Shown: one piece after another, positions 30,717 to 40,892 of the stretch
Numbering within the stretch: the stretch's first letter is position 1
Layout of the letters: each line of letters starts with the position of its first letter
Source of the DNA: Bacilli bacterium
GTDB taxonomy: Bacteria; Bacillota_I; Bacilli_A; RFN20; CAG-826
Direction of reading: 5' to 3'
DNA length: 41,651 nucleotides
NCBI GenBank assembly: GCA_024683495.1
Contig: JAIKYF010000021.1
Location: 1 to 41,651 of the forward strand
The notes under the pieces: model-generated
The model's database searches: none
The model's input: only the letters and a program-made list of their open reading frames with translations
What the model was told of the DNA's origin: nothing
Program-made: the position numbers and the translations under genes

Positions 30717-33371
30717 ATGGCAGAAAAACAATACGTTTTCTCCTTCAAGGAAGCCCATGAAATGAAATTGGGCAAGGACATCCTTGGTGGAAAAGGCGCA
30801 GGTCTCGCTGAGATGACCGCCGCTGGAATCAGAATTCCTTACGGCTTCACCATCTCCACCGAAGCTTGCACACTCTACTACGAATCCGGAAAGCAAATCC
30901 CAGATTTCGTGTGGAACCAAATCGTCGACCATCTTCATGAGGTCGAAAAATTAAACGACAAAGAATTTGGCGGTACCGAAAAGACCCCATTACTCGTCTC
31001 CGTCCGTTCCGGCGCTCGTCAATCCATGCCAGGTATGATGGATACCATCCTCAACCTTGGTTTGAATGATGAAACCGTTGAAACCCTCGCCAGAGTCAGC
31101 GGCAAAGAAAGATTCGCTTATGACTCCTATCGTCGTTTCATCTTGATGTTCACCAACATCGCCAAAGGCCATCCAAGAACTGAGATGGACCGTATGCTCG
31201 ACGAACTCAAGGAATCGAGAGGCTACAAGCTCGATACCGAAGTCACCACCGAAGAACTTAAAGTTCTCGTTGGCAAGTACAAGGACTACTACAAGAAAGT
31301 GTTCGGCGAAGAATTCCCAGCCGATCCATATGTCCAGTTAAAAGAAGCGGTCGCTGCCGTCTTCCGTAGCTGGGACAACCCACGTGCGAACGTTTATCGT
31401 CAGATGAACGGCATCCCATATGAATGGGGAACCGCCGTCAACGTTCAATCCATGGTCTTCGGTAACCTCAACTCCAACTCTGGTACTGGTGTTGCCTTCT
31501 CCCGTAACCCATCCACCGGTGAAAAAGGCATCTACGCCGAATTCCTTCAAGAAGCTCAGGGTGAAGACGTCGTTGCTGGCGTTCGTACCCCAATGCACAT
31601 CGATGAGTTGAAGAAACTCATGCCTGAAGTCTATGAAGAATTCACCAAGACCATTAAGAACATGGAACACTACTTCCGTGATATGCAGGATATGGAATAC
31701 ACCGTCGAAAACGGCGAACTCTACTTCCTCCAGACCCGTAATGGTAAGAGAACCGCTCGTGCGGCCCTCAAGATCGCTTGCGATTTAGTCGACGAAGGAC
31801 TCATCGACGAAGAAGAAGCTACTTTGAGAGTTGAGCCAAAGCAATTAAATGACTTGCTCCACCCAACCTTCGATCCAGCCGAACTTAAGAAACACACTCC
31901 AGTTCTCACTGGCCTCCCCGCTTCACCAGGCGCTGGCACCGGACATCTCGTCTTCACCGCCGAAGAAGCCAAAGAACAACATGATAAGGGAATCAAAGTC
32001 GTCCTTTGCCGTGCTGAAACCTCCCCAGAAGATATCATCGGTATGGTCAATGCCGAAGCTATCATCACTGCCCGTGGTGGCATGACCTCCCACGCTGCTG
32101 TCGTTGCCCGTTCCATGGGTAAGTGCTGCACCGCCGGTTGTACCGCTGCCATCATCAATGAAGAAGCCAAGACCATGACCATTGGTGATAAAGTTTATAA
32201 AGAAGGCGATGTCGTCTCCGTCGACGGCAACACCGGTAACGTCTATGATGGCGCCATCAAGATGATCGAAGCCGACCTCGGTGGTGACTTCGGCAGAATG
32301 ATGGAGTGGGCCGATAAGTATCGTACCCTCAAGATCCGCGCCAACTGCAACACCCCACTCGATGCTGAAAATGCTCGTAAGTTCGGTGCCGAAGGCATCG
32401 GTCTCTGCCGTACCGAACGTATGTTCTTCGCTGACGATCGTATCTTGAATATGCGTTCCATGATTCTCTCTGACACCCCAGAACAAAGAGAAGCTGCTTT
32501 AGAGAAGATCCGTCCATTCTTGGCCGGTGACTTCTACGCCATGTATATGGCCAACCCAGATTCCTTGGTTAACATCCGTTTACTCGATCCACCTCTCCAT
32601 GAGTTCTTACCAGAAATTCACGAAGACGAAAAGATCGCTGGTATTGCCAAGAACCTCGGTATCTCCGAACAAAAAGTTCGTGACAGAATTGACCAACTCC
32701 ACCAGGCCAACCCAATGATGGGCTTCCGTGGCGTCCGTCTCTGCGTCGCTTACCCAGAAATCTATGCCACCCTCGCTCGTGCCATCATCGAAGCTGCCGT
32801 CAAGGCTAGCAAAGAACTCGGCCACGATGTCGAACCAGAAATCATGATTCCTCTCGCTGGCGAAGTCAAAGAGCTCAAGTGGGCCAAGAACGTCGTCATC
32901 AAAGCGGTTGAAGATGAAATGGCCAAGGAAGGCAAGAAACTCCACTACCACGTCGGTACCATGATTGAAATCCCGAGAGGCGCTCTCCGTGCTGGGGACC
33001 TCGCCAAAGAAGCTGAATTCTTCTCCTTCGGTACTAACGACCTCACCCAGCTCACCATGGGCTTCTCCCGTGATGACTCTGGCCAATTCTTGCCATACTA
33101 CTACGACAAGAAGATCTACGAATTCGATCCATTCCAAACCATCGATAAAGAAGGTGTTGGCGAACTCGTCAAGATCGCGGTTGAACGTGGACGTGCCGTC
33201 CGCCCAGAACTCCTCATTGGTGTTTGCGGCGAAACCGGTGGCGACCCAGCCTCCATTGAATTCTACAATGAAGTTGGCCTCGACTACGTCTCCTGCTCTC
33301 CATTCCGTGTCCCTCTCGCTAGATTAGCTGCTGCTCAAGCCGCCATCAAAGCCAAGAGAGCCAAGAAATAA
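30717..33371 (+). CDS. ppdK: Pyruvate, phosphate dikinase
   Basis: LGGKGAGLAEMTAAGIRIPYGFTI, catalytic-His region TARGGMTSHAAVVARSMGKCCTAGC, C-terminal GVCGETGGDPASIEFYNEVGLDYVSCSPFRVP. Confidence 0.98.
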   Translation: MAEKQYVFSFKEAHEMKLGKDILGGKGAGLAEMTAAGIRIPYGFTISTEACTLYYESGKQIPDFVWNQIVDHLHEVEKLNDKEFGGTEKTPLLVSVRSGARQSMPGMMDTILNLGLNDETVETLARVSGKERFAYDSYRRFILMFTNIAKGHPRTEMDRMLDELKESRGYKLDTEVTTEELKVLVGKYKDYYKKVFGEEFPADPYVQLKEAVAAVFRSWDNPRANVYRQMNGIPYEWGTAVNVQSMVFGNLNSNSGTGVAFSRNPSTGEKGIYAEFLQEAQGEDVVAGVRTPMHIDELKKLMPEVYEEFTKTIKNMEHYFRDMQDMEYTVENGELYFLQTRNGKRTARAALKIACDLVDEGLIDEEEATLRVEPKQLNDLLHPTFDPAELKKHTPVLTGLPASPGAGTGHLVFTAEEAKEQHDKGIKVVLCRAETSPEDIIGMVNAEAIITARGGMTSHAAVVARSMGKCCTAGCTAAIINEEAKTMTIGDKVYKEGDVVSVDGNTGNVYDGAIKMIEADLGGDFGRMMEWADKYRTLKIRANCNTPLDAENARKFGAEGIGLCRTERMFFADDRILNMRSMILSDTPEQREAALEKIRPFLAGDFYAMYMANPDSLVNIRLLDPPLHEFLPEIHEDEKIAGIAKNLGISEQKVRDRIDQLHQANPMMGFRGVRLCVAYPEIYATLARAIIEAAVKASKELGHDVEPEIMIPLAGEVKELKWAKNVVIKAVEDEMAKEGKKLHYHVGTMIEIPRGALRAGDLAKEAEFFSFGTNDLTQLTMGFSRDDSGQFLPYYYDKKIYEFDPFQTIDKEGVGELVKIAVERGRAVRPELLIGVCGETGGDPASIEFYNEVGLDYVSCSPFRVPLARLAAAQAAIKAKRAKK

Positions 33372-33523: not shown

Positions 33524-36500
33524 ATGGGGATTAAGATTTTCTATGATGTCGACACCTATTTTTCTTTCGTGAATTTTTTCCTCGGGGCGAAATTCCTTTC
33601 CTTATCTCAGAATAAGAAAATCAATCCCTTCGCCTTCATCAATTCCTTATCAATTGAGAATGATTCGGATGATGAAATAATCGATGTTCAGATAAGGGTG
33701 GATTTCGATGAGCCATCCATCCAAATCAGCCCAATAAAAGTACCTTATTTCGCCCCTCACGATATCATCTCCCCTACCCTTGAAATGAATGTCGATTATG
33801 CTGAATTTTCAAAAATCACACGCAATTCTCAATCGAAATTAGCGGTCTCCGTGGTTGATGGAGATGGGAACATCCTTGGAAAGGAAGATATTAGTTTCAC
33901 CTTGTGTTCCGTCGAAGGAAGCTTCGATAGAATTATCGATAAAACCATCTTAGCTTCATTCTCGATTCCATCTGACGAAGACGTTAAGGCCTATTTGGCT
34001 GGGGCGGCTGGCATGCTATATGAAGTTATCGGTGAGGAAGAAGATGAATTAGGTGGCTATCTTTATAACGACAAAGAAAGAGTGAAAGAAGAAGTGAAAG
34101 CTATCTATCTTTTACTAAAGAATCATCGAATTTCCCGTCAAATCCCACCTGATTTATTATCTAGAGTCCGTTTGCCTCACTCGATATCAATGGAAGGAGA
34201 GGCTTCCTCTATAGATATTGCCCTTCTATTCTCATCAATTATTGAAGCGGACGACTTACATCCATTGCTGATCATTCTTGAAGATAAGACTCCTTTAGTG
34301 GGGGTTTGGCTGAATGCGAGTGGTGCCACATCCCAAATCGAAGACCTAAGCGATTTATTAGACGTCGAAATCCAAAAGGATGGGAACATTTTTATATTCG
34401 ATCCAAGCGGAGTTTTTCCGGAATCATCCGTCTCTTTTGAAGATGCAAACGAATTAGCCAAAAAGAAACTGAAGGATGTGGGTTTAGATTACTTCCTTGA
34501 TATTAACATCTGTCACCAAGAAGGAATCGCCTCCCTTGATATTGATTCAATCAAGAAGGCCGATAAGGCTGTAAACAATAATCTTCCCGACCTAGAAAAT
34601 GGGCCAAAGGAGAAAGATAAGTTCTCCCTATGGGAAGAAAAACTCTTGGATTTGGATATGAGGAATAACCTCATAAATTACCGTTTAGGCGGGAATTGCC
34701 TGCAATTTTTGTTTAAAGACAGTTCTTCATTCCATTATGGGATATCAAGCGGAACAAATTTTTCCATCGAGACTCTTCAATCTCAAGTCATTCATGGAGG
34801 AGACTTCTTGGCTAATCGCGACTATTCCTCTTTGATCGGCGATTCCGAAAAGCGTCTAGCAAGCCGGACCCTCACAGCGATCAGCGCCAACGGGAAAAGC
34901 GAAGACAACATCATCAATCTTGCTAGAAAGATCAACACCGAAATAGAAGAAAGCGGCGTTAACCCCTGCTTCTTGACTATTGGTTTAATCAAATGGTTTC
35001 CGAACGAGAAAGCCGCCAAGAAGAAAAGAGGAGCGTGTTATGCCCCAATCATCCTCATGCCTGTATCAATTCCCCGTCATAAACAAGGGAACAAATATAA
35101 AATCGAAATCGATGCAGACCAAATTCAGTTCAACACAACATTCATCGAATATCTAAATCAAGAATTCCATCTCGATATCTCTAAATACGCCAATCCAGAT
35201 TTAATCAGCGCCTTAGGTATCAAGGGTGTTTTTGCGATGTACCGCAAGGAGATATCTATTTTTGAAAATTGGGAAATCATTGATAATTTCTCTTCTTTGG
35301 GCCATTTCTCCTTTGCCCACTATGTTATGTGGTCGGATATGAAGAATAATCATGATTTGTTCCTTAAAAACCCCATCATTTCCGCGTTGGTTAATAAAGA
35401 AACGTTCGTAACTGATGATTCTATTAACGTGGATTTGAGCGAGACCAAACTAGAAGATGTCGCAATTCCTCTTGATATCGATTCATCGCAGCTTAAGGCA
35501 GTAATCGCTTCCGAGAAAGGGGAATCTTTCGTTCTCGACGGCCCTCCAGGCACGGGAAAGAGCCAAACTATCGCTAACATGATCGTCAATTTCCTCTATC
35601 ACAAAAAGAAAGTCCTTTTCGTTGCCCAAAAGGAAGTTGCTTTAGATATCGTCAAAAGCAAACTTGAAGAGATTGGCTTAGGAGTCTTCTGCTTACAGGT
35701 GGCTTCAGCCAAAGCCAATAAAGGCGATGTCCTTCGCCAAGTCGGCAGAGCAAAAGAGTTCGGGACCGTCAAAGAATACTCCAAACTAAAAGATCTATCT
35801 AAGAATGTTTCCGATAAAACCTCGAATATTAATAAGAATCTCGAGATACTTCATAAAGAGAACTATTGTTTTTCCCTCTATGCCGCCATCTATAAATATT
35901 TGAGCACTGAGTCATATCATTCCTCCCTATCATTCGAAAAGAAATATATCAACACCTTAACCAAAGAAAAATATGAGCAGGCTATTCTATATTTAGAACG
36001 GTTAATTCCGGCCTATACAAATGCCGGCGGCTATAAAGATAACATCTTTGCCCCATTCACCTATGATTCATATGGCTTTGGGATTAAGGATGAGATGTTT
36101 GCCCAAATCGACTCCTTAAGAAGATCTCTGAAAGAACTAAGAAATCAAATAAACCAAATAAACAAATTTACCAATCTGCCAATTGATTTTGGGAAGGAAG
36201 GGTTGGTCAGTTTGGATAGGATTGCTTTAAAAATACCTGACAAATCCCGCTTAGATTATGATTTTCTTAGAAATGAGGAAGCCTTCAAAAACTATAATAT
36301 ATTGATGACCTTCCTTGAAAAATCCATCAAGATTGCGGAATTTAGGGAATCGACATTTTCAAGAATAAGCATCGATTGCTTGGATGATTATGAAATCGAT
36401 ACCATCACCCATCGTTGCACTTTGGCAGATGGTAAAATAGACAATATTTTCGTAAGGCTCAAAACGAGGGCCCTAGCCAAAAAATTCATTAAACGATATA

Positions 36501-39202
36501 GCCTAGGAAAACCAATCAAAGATGAGATCAAGATGCTCTCTCAAATTGGGGTTTATCGTTGTAATGTCGCTGATAATAAATTCCCTGGATATGACAATAT
36601 ATGTTTGAAAGAGTCATCATATATTAAGGGTTTATCAGAAAGAATTGAGTATTCTTATGCTTTCTTCAAGAAAGTGCTTTCGAAATACGGGTTAAAAATA
36701 AATGATTTAACAAGCGTCATTAGCCAATTTATTTCTTCTTACGAGAATGATGTTCATTTAGATGATATATTTGCTTCATTCCATGAGAAATATCTCGAAA
36801 CGAAAGGTTTATTTGAAAACCTAAATAAAAATTACGGCTTCGTATATCCAGAGTTAAATGACGAAAACCAATACGATAGAGTAGTAGACTCATTAGAAGA
36901 AATCCTTAACAACAAGAACGATTTAGACAAATATACTTTACTCTCAAGGGTTTTAAATGAAGGCGAAAAATTCGTCCCCAAATCACTAATCCATGCTGTA
37001 AAAGACGGGGATTTTGCTATTTCTGATATTGTTAATATCTATGTTAATGCCGTTGCCTATAAATTAATAACCGTCATAGCAAACGAAGAAGGATTAAATA
37101 ATTTCGATAAATACTCTTTCGATCAATTGATTGAAGAATATCGAAAGAAAATTGACGAAGGTAAGAAAGCTTCTATAACCCAAACTGCCGCAATAGTCAG
37201 TGCCAATTTCCCCAATGTGAATGCCCATTACTCCAAAAACACGAAGATCGCTTCCTTATTTAAATATATAAGCAGCACTCCTAGGAATAAGACCCTCAGA
37301 AAAATCTTCGAAGAATGTGGGGAGATGATTGCCAATTATTGCCCATGCTTCTTGATGTCGCCTTTGTCTTTGGCCCAATACATCGCTCCTGGGACCATGG
37401 AATTTGACGTTGTCATTTTCGATGAGGCTTCTCAGATTCCGACTCGTGAAGCAATCGGGGCTATCGCTAGAGGAAAATCTGTTATCATCGCCGGCGACCA
37501 AAAACAGATGCCACCAACCAATTTCTTCAGCAAGCAATTCGATATTGATGATAATGCCTCTTACTACAATGTCGCAGACGATTTGGAGAGCTTATTGGAT
37601 GACGCAATCGCCTTAAACCTCCCCCGCCGTCAATTGCTTTTCCACTACCGTTCTAATCATGAATCTTTAATCGCATTCTCAAATAAGAACTTCTATAACA
37701 ATCATCTTCTGACCTTCCCGTCGATCGATAATTCAGTTTCGCGTCTTAAATATGTCTATGTTGATGGCTTATATGAAAGAAAGAAGGCAATCAATAGAGC
37801 TGAAGCCGACGCGATAGTAAATGAAACAATTAGGAGATTGTCAGATCCTGAACTATCCAAGAAATCGATTGGGATTATCACTTTCAATGAATCTCAGCAG
37901 AATCTCATAGACGATATGCTCTCCACTGCCGCTTCCTTCCATCCTGATATCGCCCCCTTATTAGAAAACGTGTTCGTCAAAAACCTCGAAAATGTTCAGG
38001 GCGATGAAAGAGACGTCATTCTCTTCTCTATTTGCTATGGACGCGACCCCAAATCAGGAAAAGTCTCATTAAACTTCGGCCCTTTATCCAAATTCAACGG
38101 AGAGAGACGTCTAAATGTTGCGATCACGAGAGCAAGAGATGAACTTATCGTCTATGCTTCGATATTACCTGAAGAAATCAGAGCTTCTGAAGCGTTGAAT
38201 CAGGGCGCTACCTATTTAAAGAACTTCCTTTCGTATGCTCAGAACTATAACTTGTTTGATTGGCATCACTCAATACATACCCCATCTATTGCCGATTTCG
38301 TCGCCAATGACATAAAGGCCAGAGGTTTTGAAGTAGAGCAAAGCATTGGAGTATCAACTTTCAGAGTGGATTTAGCCATTAAGAGAAAGGGTGCTTCTAA
38401 CTATATTCTTGGGGTGATGATAGATAAAGATCCCGAACAGAGAACTTGCCGAGATAGAAACGTCATCGAACCTAAGATGCTGAAACGTCTTGGTTGGAGA
38501 TTGTATTATCTTAATAGTCTTGACTATCTATACCGAAAAGTAGATGTCATCGATGAAATATGCGCCGAGATTGAAAAAGAGGAAAACAATAACATCGAAC
38601 AAGACGCACCGGTTACGGCTGAATTCGAGAAAAAAGAGATAACTTTGTGGGATACCTATCCGCACGCTCAAATGATGCGTAAACACAAGAGGGTTCCTAA
38701 GGAAAAATTAGAGGACACCATTCGATTAATTATCGAAAAAGAGGGCCCCATTTCGGAGAATGCGTTATTCGAACGATATGCTGAAGAAATCGAAATGGAT
38801 AAATTGACCTCTAAACTCAAGAATGCCATTCTAAAATTTATAAATTACGACAGTAATGTTTTAATCTCCGAGCATGTTTGCGGGAAAACATTCTACTGGA
38901 GAAAGAATAAGCCATTTATTACATGCGACTTCTTTAGATTTAACGTTCCATCTCAGAAGATCGTTAGAAAACTAACTAATCTCCACCCACGTGAGATTGG
39001 TTGTTTAATCTATGATATTTTGAATGTTGAGGGGCGTTTGCTCGACACTCAATTATATGAATCAATAAGAGCTGTTTTTAACCTCGACGCCATACGTAAA
39101 CCAGATAAAGAATATATTGATGAAGTCTACACATATTTAATGTCGATAGGCTTTATGGGATTAAATAAAGTCGGCACCGTATTTATGATTGGAGAACCCT
39201 AA
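33524..39202 (+). CDS. Large DUF4011-type superfamily 1 helicase with C-terminal Vsr/MTES_1575-like nuclease fold and DUF3320-like tail
   Basis: 1892 aa; Walker A VLDGPPGTGKSQTIANMI, Walker B VVIFDEASQIPTREAIGAI, IIAGDQKQMPP, ENVQGDERDVILFS, motif VI RRLNVAITRARDELIVYAS; FRVDLAIKRKGASNYILGVMIDKD...RDRNVIEPKMLKRLGWRLYYLNSLDYL. Confidence 0.85.
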   Translation: MGIKIFYDVDTYFSFVNFFLGAKFLSLSQNKKINPFAFINSLSIENDSDDEIIDVQIRVDFDEPSIQISPIKVPYFAPHDIISPTLEMNVDYAEFSKITRNSQSKLAVSVVDGDGNILGKEDISFTLCSVEGSFDRIIDKTILASFSIPSDEDVKAYLAGAAGMLYEVIGEEEDELGGYLYNDKERVKEEVKAIYLLLKNHRISRQIPPDLLSRVRLPHSISMEGEASSIDIALLFSSIIEADDLHPLLIILEDKTPLVGVWLNASGATSQIEDLSDLLDVEIQKDGNIFIFDPSGVFPESSVSFEDANELAKKKLKDVGLDYFLDINICHQEGIASLDIDSIKKADKAVNNNLPDLENGPKEKDKFSLWEEKLLDLDMRNNLINYRLGGNCLQFLFKDSSSFHYGISSGTNFSIETLQSQVIHGGDFLANRDYSSLIGDSEKRLASRTLTAISANGKSEDNIINLARKINTEIEESGVNPCFLTIGLIKWFPNEKAAKKKRGACYAPIILMPVSIPRHKQGNKYKIEIDADQIQFNTTFIEYLNQEFHLDISKYANPDLISALGIKGVFAMYRKEISIFENWEIIDNFSSLGHFSFAHYVMWSDMKNNHDLFLKNPIISALVNKETFVTDDSINVDLSETKLEDVAIPLDIDSSQLKAVIASEKGESFVLDGPPGTGKSQTIANMIVNFLYHKKKVLFVAQKEVALDIVKSKLEEIGLGVFCLQVASAKANKGDVLRQVGRAKEFGTVKEYSKLKDLSKNVSDKTSNINKNLEILHKENYCFSLYAAIYKYLSTESYHSSLSFEKKYINTLTKEKYEQAILYLERLIPAYTNAGGYKDNIFAPFTYDSYGFGIKDEMFAQIDSLRRSLKELRNQINQINKFTNLPIDFGKEGLVSLDRIALKIPDKSRLDYDFLRNEEAFKNYNILMTFLEKSIKIAEFRESTFSRISIDCLDDYEIDTITHRCTLADGKIDNIFVRLKTRALAKKFIKRYSLGKPIKDEIKMLSQIGVYRCNVADNKFPGYDNICLKESSYIKGLSERIEYSYAFFKKVLSKYGLKINDLTSVISQFISSYENDVHLDDIFASFHEKYLETKGLFENLNKNYGFVYPELNDENQYDRVVDSLEEILNNKNDLDKYTLLSRVLNEGEKFVPKSLIHAVKDGDFAISDIVNIYVNAVAYKLITVIANEEGLNNFDKYSFDQLIEEYRKKIDEGKKASITQTAAIVSANFPNVNAHYSKNTKIASLFKYISSTPRNKTLRKIFEECGEMIANYCPCFLMSPLSLAQYIAPGTMEFDVVIFDEASQIPTREAIGAIARGKSVIIAGDQKQMPPTNFFSKQFDIDDNASYYNVADDLESLLDDAIALNLPRRQLLFHYRSNHESLIAFSNKNFYNNHLLTFPSIDNSVSRLKYVYVDGLYERKKAINRAEADAIVNETIRRLSDPELSKKSIGIITFNESQQNLIDDMLSTAASFHPDIAPLLENVFVKNLENVQGDERDVILFSICYGRDPKSGKVSLNFGPLSKFNGERRLNVAITRARDELIVYASILPEEIRASEALNQGATYLKNFLSYAQNYNLFDWHHSIHTPSIADFVANDIKARGFEVEQSIGVSTFRVDLAIKRKGASNYILGVMIDKDPEQRTCRDRNVIEPKMLKRLGWRLYYLNSLDYLYRKVDVIDEICAEIEKEENNNIEQDAPVTAEFEKKEITLWDTYPHAQMMRKHKRVPKEKLEDTIRLIIEKEGPISENALFERYAEEIEMDKLTSKLKNAILKFINYDSNVLISEHVCGKTFYWRKNKPFITCDFFRFNVPSQKIVRKLTNLHPREIGCLIYDILNVEGRLLDTQLYESIRAVFNLDAIRKPDKEYIDEVYTYLMSIGFMGLNKVGTVFMIGEP

Positions 39203-39975
39203 TCTTGGAGCTTTTCCTCATAAAGAGGATAATCTTCATCCGAAGGAGCGAAAACAACTGCGGGAGCGTTGTCGTGAGTAGCTAGGTAAAAGTCCACTTC
39301 TCTTATCGCTATTTCAACCGCGCTCTTTCTTGGAAACCTTTCTTCTCCTGTCGAGATTGAAGGAAACACAATCGCTTTCATTCCTAGAGATGTGGCTCTA
39401 TCCAAAGCATTTATATAACACTGTTCCAATTTCTTCTCATACAAGAAAGTTATATTGTCATGAATTGGTCTAGGGCCAACTATGTGAATCACATATTTAG
39501 AAGGTAGATTGTATCCATTTGTAACTAGAGCCTCGCTTACTTCGAGGTTCTTTTTTCTTTTCTTAATTACTTGGTGACATTCGTAGCGTAATCTAAGCCC
39601 CGCATACGAATGAATTAAATTGTCGAGGCTCTTATTAAGGGGCGCTAAGTCACCAGTCAATTCAGGATTAGTTGGATTAACGACTGCGTCAGCTTGGATA
39701 AGATACGGAGGAACCTTGGTAAGAGCAATTTTAGGATATGAGGTAGAAGGCAGTGTAAAAGCTGAAACTACACCTTCAGAATAAAGTTTGTCGTTCAAAT
39801 AAGAGGCTTCTAATCGAATAAATTCGTCAGTTAAAGGGGTTTCTAAATTATCGTGAAGGTTCTCTAAAGCCCGAAATCTATTTTTTAAGGAATGCTCCTT
39901 TTCTAATATCCATTTATGATCCGGACAATAACTAAGAAGGATCTGAACAAGCCGTTTTAATTCAATGTCGCTCAT
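39199..39975 (-). CDS. Divergent macrodomain protein (SauMacro/protein-ADP-ribose hydrolase-like architecture)
   Basis: RFRALENLHDNLETPLTDEFIRLEASYL N-terminal region; QADAVVNPTNPELTG, SLDNLIHSYAGLRLRYEC, GYNLPSKYVIHIVGP, AIVFPSISTGEERFP. Confidence 0.82.
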   Translation of the reverse strand: MSDIELKRLVQILLSYCPDHKWILEKEHSLKNRFRALENLHDNLETPLTDEFIRLEASYLNDKLYSEGVVSAFTLPSTSYPKIALTKVPPYLIQADAVVNPTNPELTGDLAPLNKSLDNLIHSYAGLRLRYECHQVIKKRKKNLEVSEALVTNGYNLPSKYVIHIVGPRPIHDNITFLYEKKLEQCYINALDRATSLGMKAIVFPSISTGEERFPRKSAVEIAIREVDFYLATHDNAPAVVFAPSDEDYPLYEEKLQD

Positions 39976-39977
39976 AT

Positions 39978-40250
39978 TTATAAATTATCGATAGCATCTT
40001 TGAGGGATTTAAGATCAGAGAGTTCATCTGCGTGATTGTCAAAAGGTTCGTCTAATTTCAATTTGAGGCCTTTTGATTCTTTCTTAGTTGGTTTAACGAC
40101 AACAGGGAAAGGGAGCCCTTTTTCACGAACTAATGCTTTTAAAAAGAGAGTTATTGCCGTAGACATAGGTAAACCTAATTCCTTTGCTACTTTTTCAGCA
40201 TCATTTTTTAGTTTGCTATCAATTCTCAAATTCAAAGTAGTTTTCGGCAT
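39978..40250 (-). CDS. RelB/DinJ-family antitoxin-like protein
   Basis: MPKTTLNLRIDSKLKNDAEKVAKELGLPMSTAITLFLKALVREKGLPF typical RelB/DinJ RHH; 2 bp upstream of the macrodomain gene. Confidence 0.85.
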   Translation of the reverse strand: MPKTTLNLRIDSKLKNDAEKVAKELGLPMSTAITLFLKALVREKGLPFPVVVKPTKKESKGLKLKLDEPFDNHADELSDLKSLKDAIDNL

Positions 40251-40277
40251 AATATGAAATAATCTCCTTGTAATTTT

Positions 40278-40299
40278 GTAACGTAAAAGTAACGCAAAT
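40278..40299. promoter_or_regulatory. Tandem 11-bp direct repeat, putative RHH operator
   Basis: gtaacgtaaaa|gtaacgcaaat between the promoter and the relB-like start. Confidence 0.55.
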
Positions 40300-40314
40300 T
40301 ACTTTACATAAATT

Positions 40315-40343
40315 AATATAAGGCTTTTTAATAGAGAAAACAA
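40315..40343 (-). promoter_or_regulatory. Putative promoter of the relB-like/macrodomain operon
   Basis: minus strand TTGTTT-N17-TATATT. Confidence 0.5.
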
Positions 40344-40583: not shown

Positions 40584-40862
40584 TTATTTGAATAACTCCG
40601 AGAAGGCTTTATCGACAGATTGATTCGTGGATTTTTTAGTCGTTTTCTTAATAGGTTTATTCTTTTTCGATTCTTTCGATTCGGGTGTGGAGCCACTTCC
40701 TCCATTAAGATCAACAGCAAAAGGGATTCCGTTCCTTAAAACGACCTGTTCAAGGTAAATGGAAATTGCGGAGGAGAATGAAATTCCCAATTTTTTGAAA
40801 ATTGCCTGAGCTTCATCTTTGGTTCTTTTGTTGACTCTTATATTGACGGTTTGACTTGTCAT
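40584..40862 (-). CDS. Second RelB/DinJ-family antitoxin-like protein (no adjacent toxin seen)
   Basis: MTSQTVNIRVNKRTKDEAQAIFKKLGISFSSAISIYLEQVVLRNGIPF; SD taggagg before MTSQ. Confidence 0.8.
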   Translation of the reverse strand: MTSQTVNIRVNKRTKDEAQAIFKKLGISFSSAISIYLEQVVLRNGIPFAVDLNGGSGSTPESKESKKNKPIKKTTKKSTNQSVDKAFSELFK

Positions 40863-40892
40863 AATTTTTCCTCCTAAAAACATTATATACCA

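Follow-up and report, generated by a model that had tools for sequence, protein, structure and literature searches.

The window analysed here is the 41,651 bp contig JAIKYF010000021.1 of a Bacilli bacterium (assembly GCA_024683495.1). Its host is represented by a metagenome-assembled genome (MAG) of 1.59 Mb, in 172 contigs, that is 85% complete. The genus consists of uncultured gut bacteria; sequence records give the rumen or horse faeces as the origin of several relatives with RelB matches. In the window, a gene encoding a RelB/DinJ-like ribbon-helix-helix (RHH) protein (relB) lies upstream of a macrodomain gene (macro). An original prediction, made from the sequence of the window, proposed that the two could form a new type of toxin–antitoxin (TA) pair linked to ADP-ribose signalling. 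We searched 224 genomes of the family, separately with the RelB and the macro proteins, and then inspected the neighbouring DNA. The genus is sampled by 37 genomes (designated G###; the window genome is G000). For comparison at the class level we used 23 Zn-Macro loci from class Bacilli.

The relB and macro genes and the relB promoter

The features of the locus are listed in Table 1. Both open reading frames lie where they had been placed, with a gap of 2 bp, and their products pass curated models. The upstream product scores 43.1 bits with the RelB model PF04221 (cut-off 22.4) and 67.1 bits with RelB_DinJ TIGR02384 (cut-off 45.65), and so is a member of the RelB/DinJ family. The protein has an N-terminal RHH, a variable acidic linker and a conserved C-terminal helix. 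The helix spans residues 77–88 in a low-confidence model (predicted local distance difference test score, pLDDT, 64). Elsewhere the family has canonical dinJ-yafQ pairs (L100, L101), and the C-terminus of their DinJ is unlike the RelB motif described here.

Table 1. Features of the relB-macro locus in the window.
Feature	Position	Strand	Basis
relB/dinJ-like RHH gene, 90 aa	39978..40250	-	PF04221 and TIGR02384 above cut-off; same-locus orthologues across the genus
RelB C-terminal motif SLKDAIDNL	39981..40007	-	alignments; orthologue consensus S[LIF][KR]xAI[DE]KL; present also where macro is missing
Macrodomain gene of the Zn-Macro family, 258 aa (helical N-terminal region, then macrodomain)	39199..39975	-	PF01661, NF003163, PDB matches, AlphaFold model
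Former zinc loop, residues 109–116, DLAPLNKS instead of Cx4HxC	39628..39651	-	alignments including 8rsi
Putative palindromic operator GTAACGCAAATTACTTTAC, 2 mismatches to GTAACGC-N5-GCGTTAC	40289..40307	.	motif search
Extra direct half-site ACGTTAC, 11 bp from the first	40278..40284	-	11- or 22-bp phasing also in relatives

The macro protein scores 92.5 bits with PF01661 (cut-off 22). Its best model is NF003163, at 170 bits and under the equivalog cut-off of 272. The nearest solved structures (8rsi, 8rsm and 5kiv) match over almost the whole length, and the closest solved relatives are the Zn-Macros MorMacro (Methanobrevibacter oralis), SpyMacro (Streptococcus pyogenes) and SauMacro (Staphylococcus aureus). 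The AlphaFold model (pLDDT 87.7; predicted template modelling score 0.86) is closest in fold to 8rsj, the ADP-ribose-bound M. oralis protein (TM score 0.91). It has the MacroD-type macrodomain and N-terminal three-helix bundle of a Zn-Macro. By sequence, profile and predicted fold, the protein is assigned to the MacroD-type Zn-Macro family.

Outside the genus, Zn-Macros of the family and order mostly adjoin sirtuin-like genes. SirTM was not found in the window genome, either in an operon or as a fusion with macro. Strong SirTM matches in the genus are confined to G182, G194 and G213, and 17 of the 18 genomes with the relB-macro pair lack SirTM. G213 has a separate SirTM-linked Zn-Macro beside its RelB-linked macro. 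At one locus outside the window (L102, 3097–3717) a PNPOx-N/4Fe-4S protein, recognised by Pfam, adjoins a SirTM-type/Zn-Macro pair; similar Fe-S matches lie at L177, L180, L182 and L183. This protein is a possible redox partner of SirTM-type/Zn-Macro operons.

A Cx4HxC loop is the defining feature of Zn-Macros. In the window macro all three zinc ligands are replaced (D109-x4-N114-x-S116). The Asp118/His122 dyad, Asp96, Asn103, the Ser-Thr-Gly loop (208–210) and Phe214 are retained. Judged from these residues, the protein is a Zn-Macro descendant and not a zinc enzyme. Because the residues expected to hold ADP-ribose are kept and the zinc ligands are not, it should bind ADP-ribose without hydrolysing it or using zinc. 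Cx4HxC is missing from 8 of 17 RelB-linked macros (9 keep it), from none of the 20 other members of the family tree and from none of the 23 class-level loci. Mapped on the species tree, the motif was lost in three lineages: the window; G199, G207 and G209, where the last Cys is replaced by Ser; and G202, G208, G211 and G212 (plus G200). The ratio of non-synonymous to synonymous substitution rates (dN/dS) is 0.11–0.17 for macros with impaired zinc motifs (0.16 for G207–G209 and 0.11 for G208–G212), all measured in relatives of the window macro. On these ratios, comparable zinc-impaired macros remain under purifying selection. The macro pocket is highly variable between species; it is decaying or diversifying in the RelB-paired lineage.

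Operator-like repeats upstream of relB had been noted in the window, and they extend to the relatives. The window palindrome is weak by itself, as chance alone would give 0.53 matches with 3 or fewer mismatches, and its support comes from the relatives. Upstream of relB, GCGTTAC half-sites either form the GTAACGC-N5-GCGTTAC palindrome or recur as direct repeats at distances of 11 or 22 bp. Exact half-sites number 58 across 30 relB upstream regions, whereas first-order Markov resampling predicts 0.9; the 30 loci are kin and hence not 30 independent observations. In the 37 whole genomes there are 12 perfect palindromes, all before relB, and 15 of 18 direct-repeat matches are also before relB. 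The other three (G181:C25, G191:C14 and G194:C6), whose spacers are unrelated, were disregarded. A regulon beyond relB was considered and discarded, since the genome-wide searches returned essentially relB promoters only. As the phased half-sites are located essentially only before relB, RelB is most likely a dedicated autorepressor.

The GCGTTAC motif is absent upstream of relB in G211 and G213. These promoters (L074 and L071) bear TGTATATACA-like repeats instead, and in their RelB the DNA-reading strand has Ile or Val, not Thr, at residue 5. Repressor–operator co-evolution would look like this, in two cases. The TGTATATACA sequence also occurs between half-sites in species that have RelB and no macro.

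Distribution and history of the pair

The pair is not peculiar to the window genome, which answers the check on co-occurrence that had been proposed. It is present at one chromosomal locus in 18 of the 37 genus genomes (G000, G179, G180, G188, G189, G190, G193, G199, G200, G202, G203, G206, G207, G208, G209, G211, G212 and G213). Linkage in G180 is deduced, as its relB and macro are on separate contigs that each end within a DUF362 gene. The G200 macro is in two overlapping frames, which points to a pseudogene or to an assembly error. The two genes are usually 1–3 bp apart or overlapping in these genomes, and are probably translationally coupled. No RelB-macro pair was found in the searched genomes of the family and order outside the genus, and RelB is present at 0 of the 23 class Bacilli loci. 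In the macro tree, a branch with support of 99/95 has all RelB-linked macros on one side and all others, including those linked to SirTM, on the other. On this tree, the linkage thus has a single origin.

In most genomes the gene order is mnmE-tatD-rnmV-ksgA-ispE-glmU, then relB-[DUF362]-macro, then PPDK, or a rearranged version of this. A DUF362 protein with 4Fe-4S motifs is encoded between relB and macro in five genomes (G180, G200, G202, G208 and G212). Because this form falls on two distant branches of the concatenated tree, relB-DUF362-macro is probably the ancestral order in the genus.

Ten species (G181, G183, G184, G185, G191, G192, G196, G197, G198 and G204) carry relB at this locus but lack macro genome-wide. 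They form one clade (support 100/100) nested among macro-bearing species and, hence, one loss of macro is the simplest reading. The clade retains the operator and the RelB C-terminal motif, with the variant SLLSALNKL in G191. RelB dN/dS within it is 0.015–0.13. In G194 and G195, relB has the operator and is distant from any macro. Since relB, its C-terminus and its operator outlast the loss of macro in ten species, RelB does not serve solely to neutralise macro; a RelB kept for that purpose would be expected to decay after the loss. The C-terminal helix must have a use other than macro neutralisation.

Readings of the locus

We favour reading the locus as a small autoregulated unit, in which an RHH autorepressor controls the gene for an ADP-ribose reader or eraser, and not as a TA pair; we give this a probability of about 0.58. 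RelB, with its RelB/DinJ fold, would bind the 11-bp-phased half-sites before its own gene and so repress the operon. The downstream protein would be a Zn-Macro descendant outside the usual SirTM operon. It would read ADP-ribose or an ADP-ribosylated ligand and, where the zinc motif is kept, would still cleave it. The locus resembles SirTM/Zn-Macro operons (PMC4518038; PMC11490716) in the fold, length and N-terminal helical region of the macro protein, and both contexts have redox (4Fe-4S) genes nearby. It differs in that a RelB-type RHH gene takes the place of SirTM, which is at neither the locus nor elsewhere in the window genome, and in that three lineages, including the window, have lost the zinc motif. 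SirTM/Zn-Macro operons are induced by oxidative stress (PMC4518038). By analogy with these, and because of the 4Fe-4S neighbour DUF362, the operon is probably tied to redox stress or to stress involving nicotinamide adenine dinucleotide (NAD). We found no paper in the open-access literature that joins DUF362 with macrodomains.

Several points weigh against this interpretation. RHH autorepression is also typical of TA operons, so the operator alone cannot separate the readings. The DUF362 linkage, seen in five genomes, backs a redox role only indirectly. Loss of the zinc ligands may permit another metal or activity. The dN/dS values for impaired macros are those of relatives, the window macro having no close relative in the sample. 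Finally, with the MAG 85% complete, a partner encoded in trans could be missed.

The locus does have the look of a type II TA operon. The antitoxin-like gene comes first, the spacing of 1–3 bp or less is tight, the RHH protein belongs to RelB/DinJ, a palindromic putative operator lies at its own promoter, and the linkage has a single origin. A toxic macro that, for example, titrates or cleaves NAD-derived or ADP-ribosylated molecules, and is neutralised by the RelB C-terminus, would account for these features. We nevertheless consider such a new type II-like pair distinctly unlikely. RelB persists with its C-terminal motif and operator, at low dN/dS, in the ten macro-less species. DUF362 separates the two genes in five genomes, the pocket of macro varies greatly between species, and the locus lies on the chromosome among housekeeping genes and is inherited vertically. 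Macro also belongs to an enzyme/reader family, the Zn-Macros, whose members are not known to act as toxins. Compared with RelE/YafQ systems, a macrodomain gene stands in the place of the RNase toxin gene, and RelB has another conserved C-terminus and outlives its partner gene. Thus the original proposal of a new pair with a link to ADP-ribose holds for the pairing itself, which is genuine, recurrent and of single origin, and for its ADP-ribose biology; the TA role is not supported. PADLOC has no match for the pair, and no RelB-macrodomain pair was found described in the open-access literature. The pair combines known kinds, Zn-Macro and RelB/DinJ, and is not a new class.

Nor did a canonical toxin emerge as the real partner. 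No RelE-, YafQ- or ParE-type gene adjoins relB, whose neighbour is macro. There is no YafQ (PF15738) or ParE/RelE-type (PF05016) match in the window genome, an 85% complete MAG, and a canonical toxin in trans was therefore rejected for this genome. In DarTG systems, the ADP-ribosyltransferase DarT is the toxin and has the macrodomain protein DarG as its antitoxin. The present locus is similar in that a macrodomain is part of a two-gene unit resembling a TA system, but the macro is of MacroD/Zn-Macro type. A DarTG-like arrangement was rejected because searches for DarT (PF14487) gave no match in the 37 genus genomes.

Alternatively, RelB and macro could act together as a complex, with macro as the co-repressor or sensor and ADP-ribose binding altering operator occupancy; this would give a transcription switch responsive to ADP-ribose or NAD. 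The tight coupling and shared history of the genes, and the constraint on non-catalytic macros, speak for this. If true, this would be a kind of regulator not described so far, in which a pseudo-enzyme reader controls a repressor derived from an antitoxin. We regard the switch as unlikely: RelB and its operator are retained where macro is lost, and the C-terminal helix, undecayed in the absence of macro, cannot be needed only for macro binding. RelB might instead be an orphan that protects against YafQ/RelE toxins of incoming elements, with macro an unrelated passenger. Orphan antitoxins are common and have been proposed as anti-addiction factors (PMC7354431), and the family does contain dinJ-yafQ pairs. 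However, the YafQ-linked DinJ proteins of the family have another C-terminal motif, the window genome has neither YafQ nor ParE/RelE matches, and a passenger gene would not explain why both deep branches kept the pair. We judge this very improbable. An antitoxin captured by an immunity gene, which had also been suggested, comes closer to the autoregulated unit that we favour if reworded to say that a Zn-Macro gene has captured an RHH repressor; no evidence for immunity was seen.

What the analysis adds to the original prediction is the Zn-Macro descent of the window macro with its zinc ligands replaced, the pairing in half of the genomes and the persistence of RelB alone in many species. A Zn-Macro lineage that has departed from its sirtuin writer, is paired with an RHH protein and has repeatedly become metal-less, yet is still selected, offers a natural test of macrodomains as readers. 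The locus also cautions that tightly spaced, RelB-first operons need not be TA systems, as the 'antitoxin' here has survived, with its operator, the loss of its partner gene.

Neighbouring genes

The window genome has two further RelB-like genes. One (40584–40883, minus strand) encodes a RelB/DinJ-type RHH protein, has no adjoining toxin and is preceded by a perfect 17-bp palindrome, TGTATTATAATAATACA. The other is an orphan open reading frame of 70 aa (L002, 1492–1704; G000:C75), also with no toxin neighbour.

Macro and PPDK face each other in most genomes. In the window, PPDK (30717–33371) is still near, and a helicase-nuclease gene (33524–39202, plus strand) lies between it and macro. The helicase-nuclease gene encodes an anti-phage-like protein of 1892 aa with DUF4011 helicase and MTES_1575 nuclease regions; its best models are NCBIfam ProA (below cut-off) and PADLOC PDC-S37. 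The gene is missing at the corresponding position in relatives. Because PPDK and macro face each other directly in most of these, it looks like a lineage-specific insertion.

Between glmU and relB, several genomes encode a small repetitive protein of 84–91 aa with GYIDDGGDV-like repeats (L081, 1994–2260; L076, 7153–7407; L075, 5166–5420; L072, 7595–7870). It had no Pfam match where tested.

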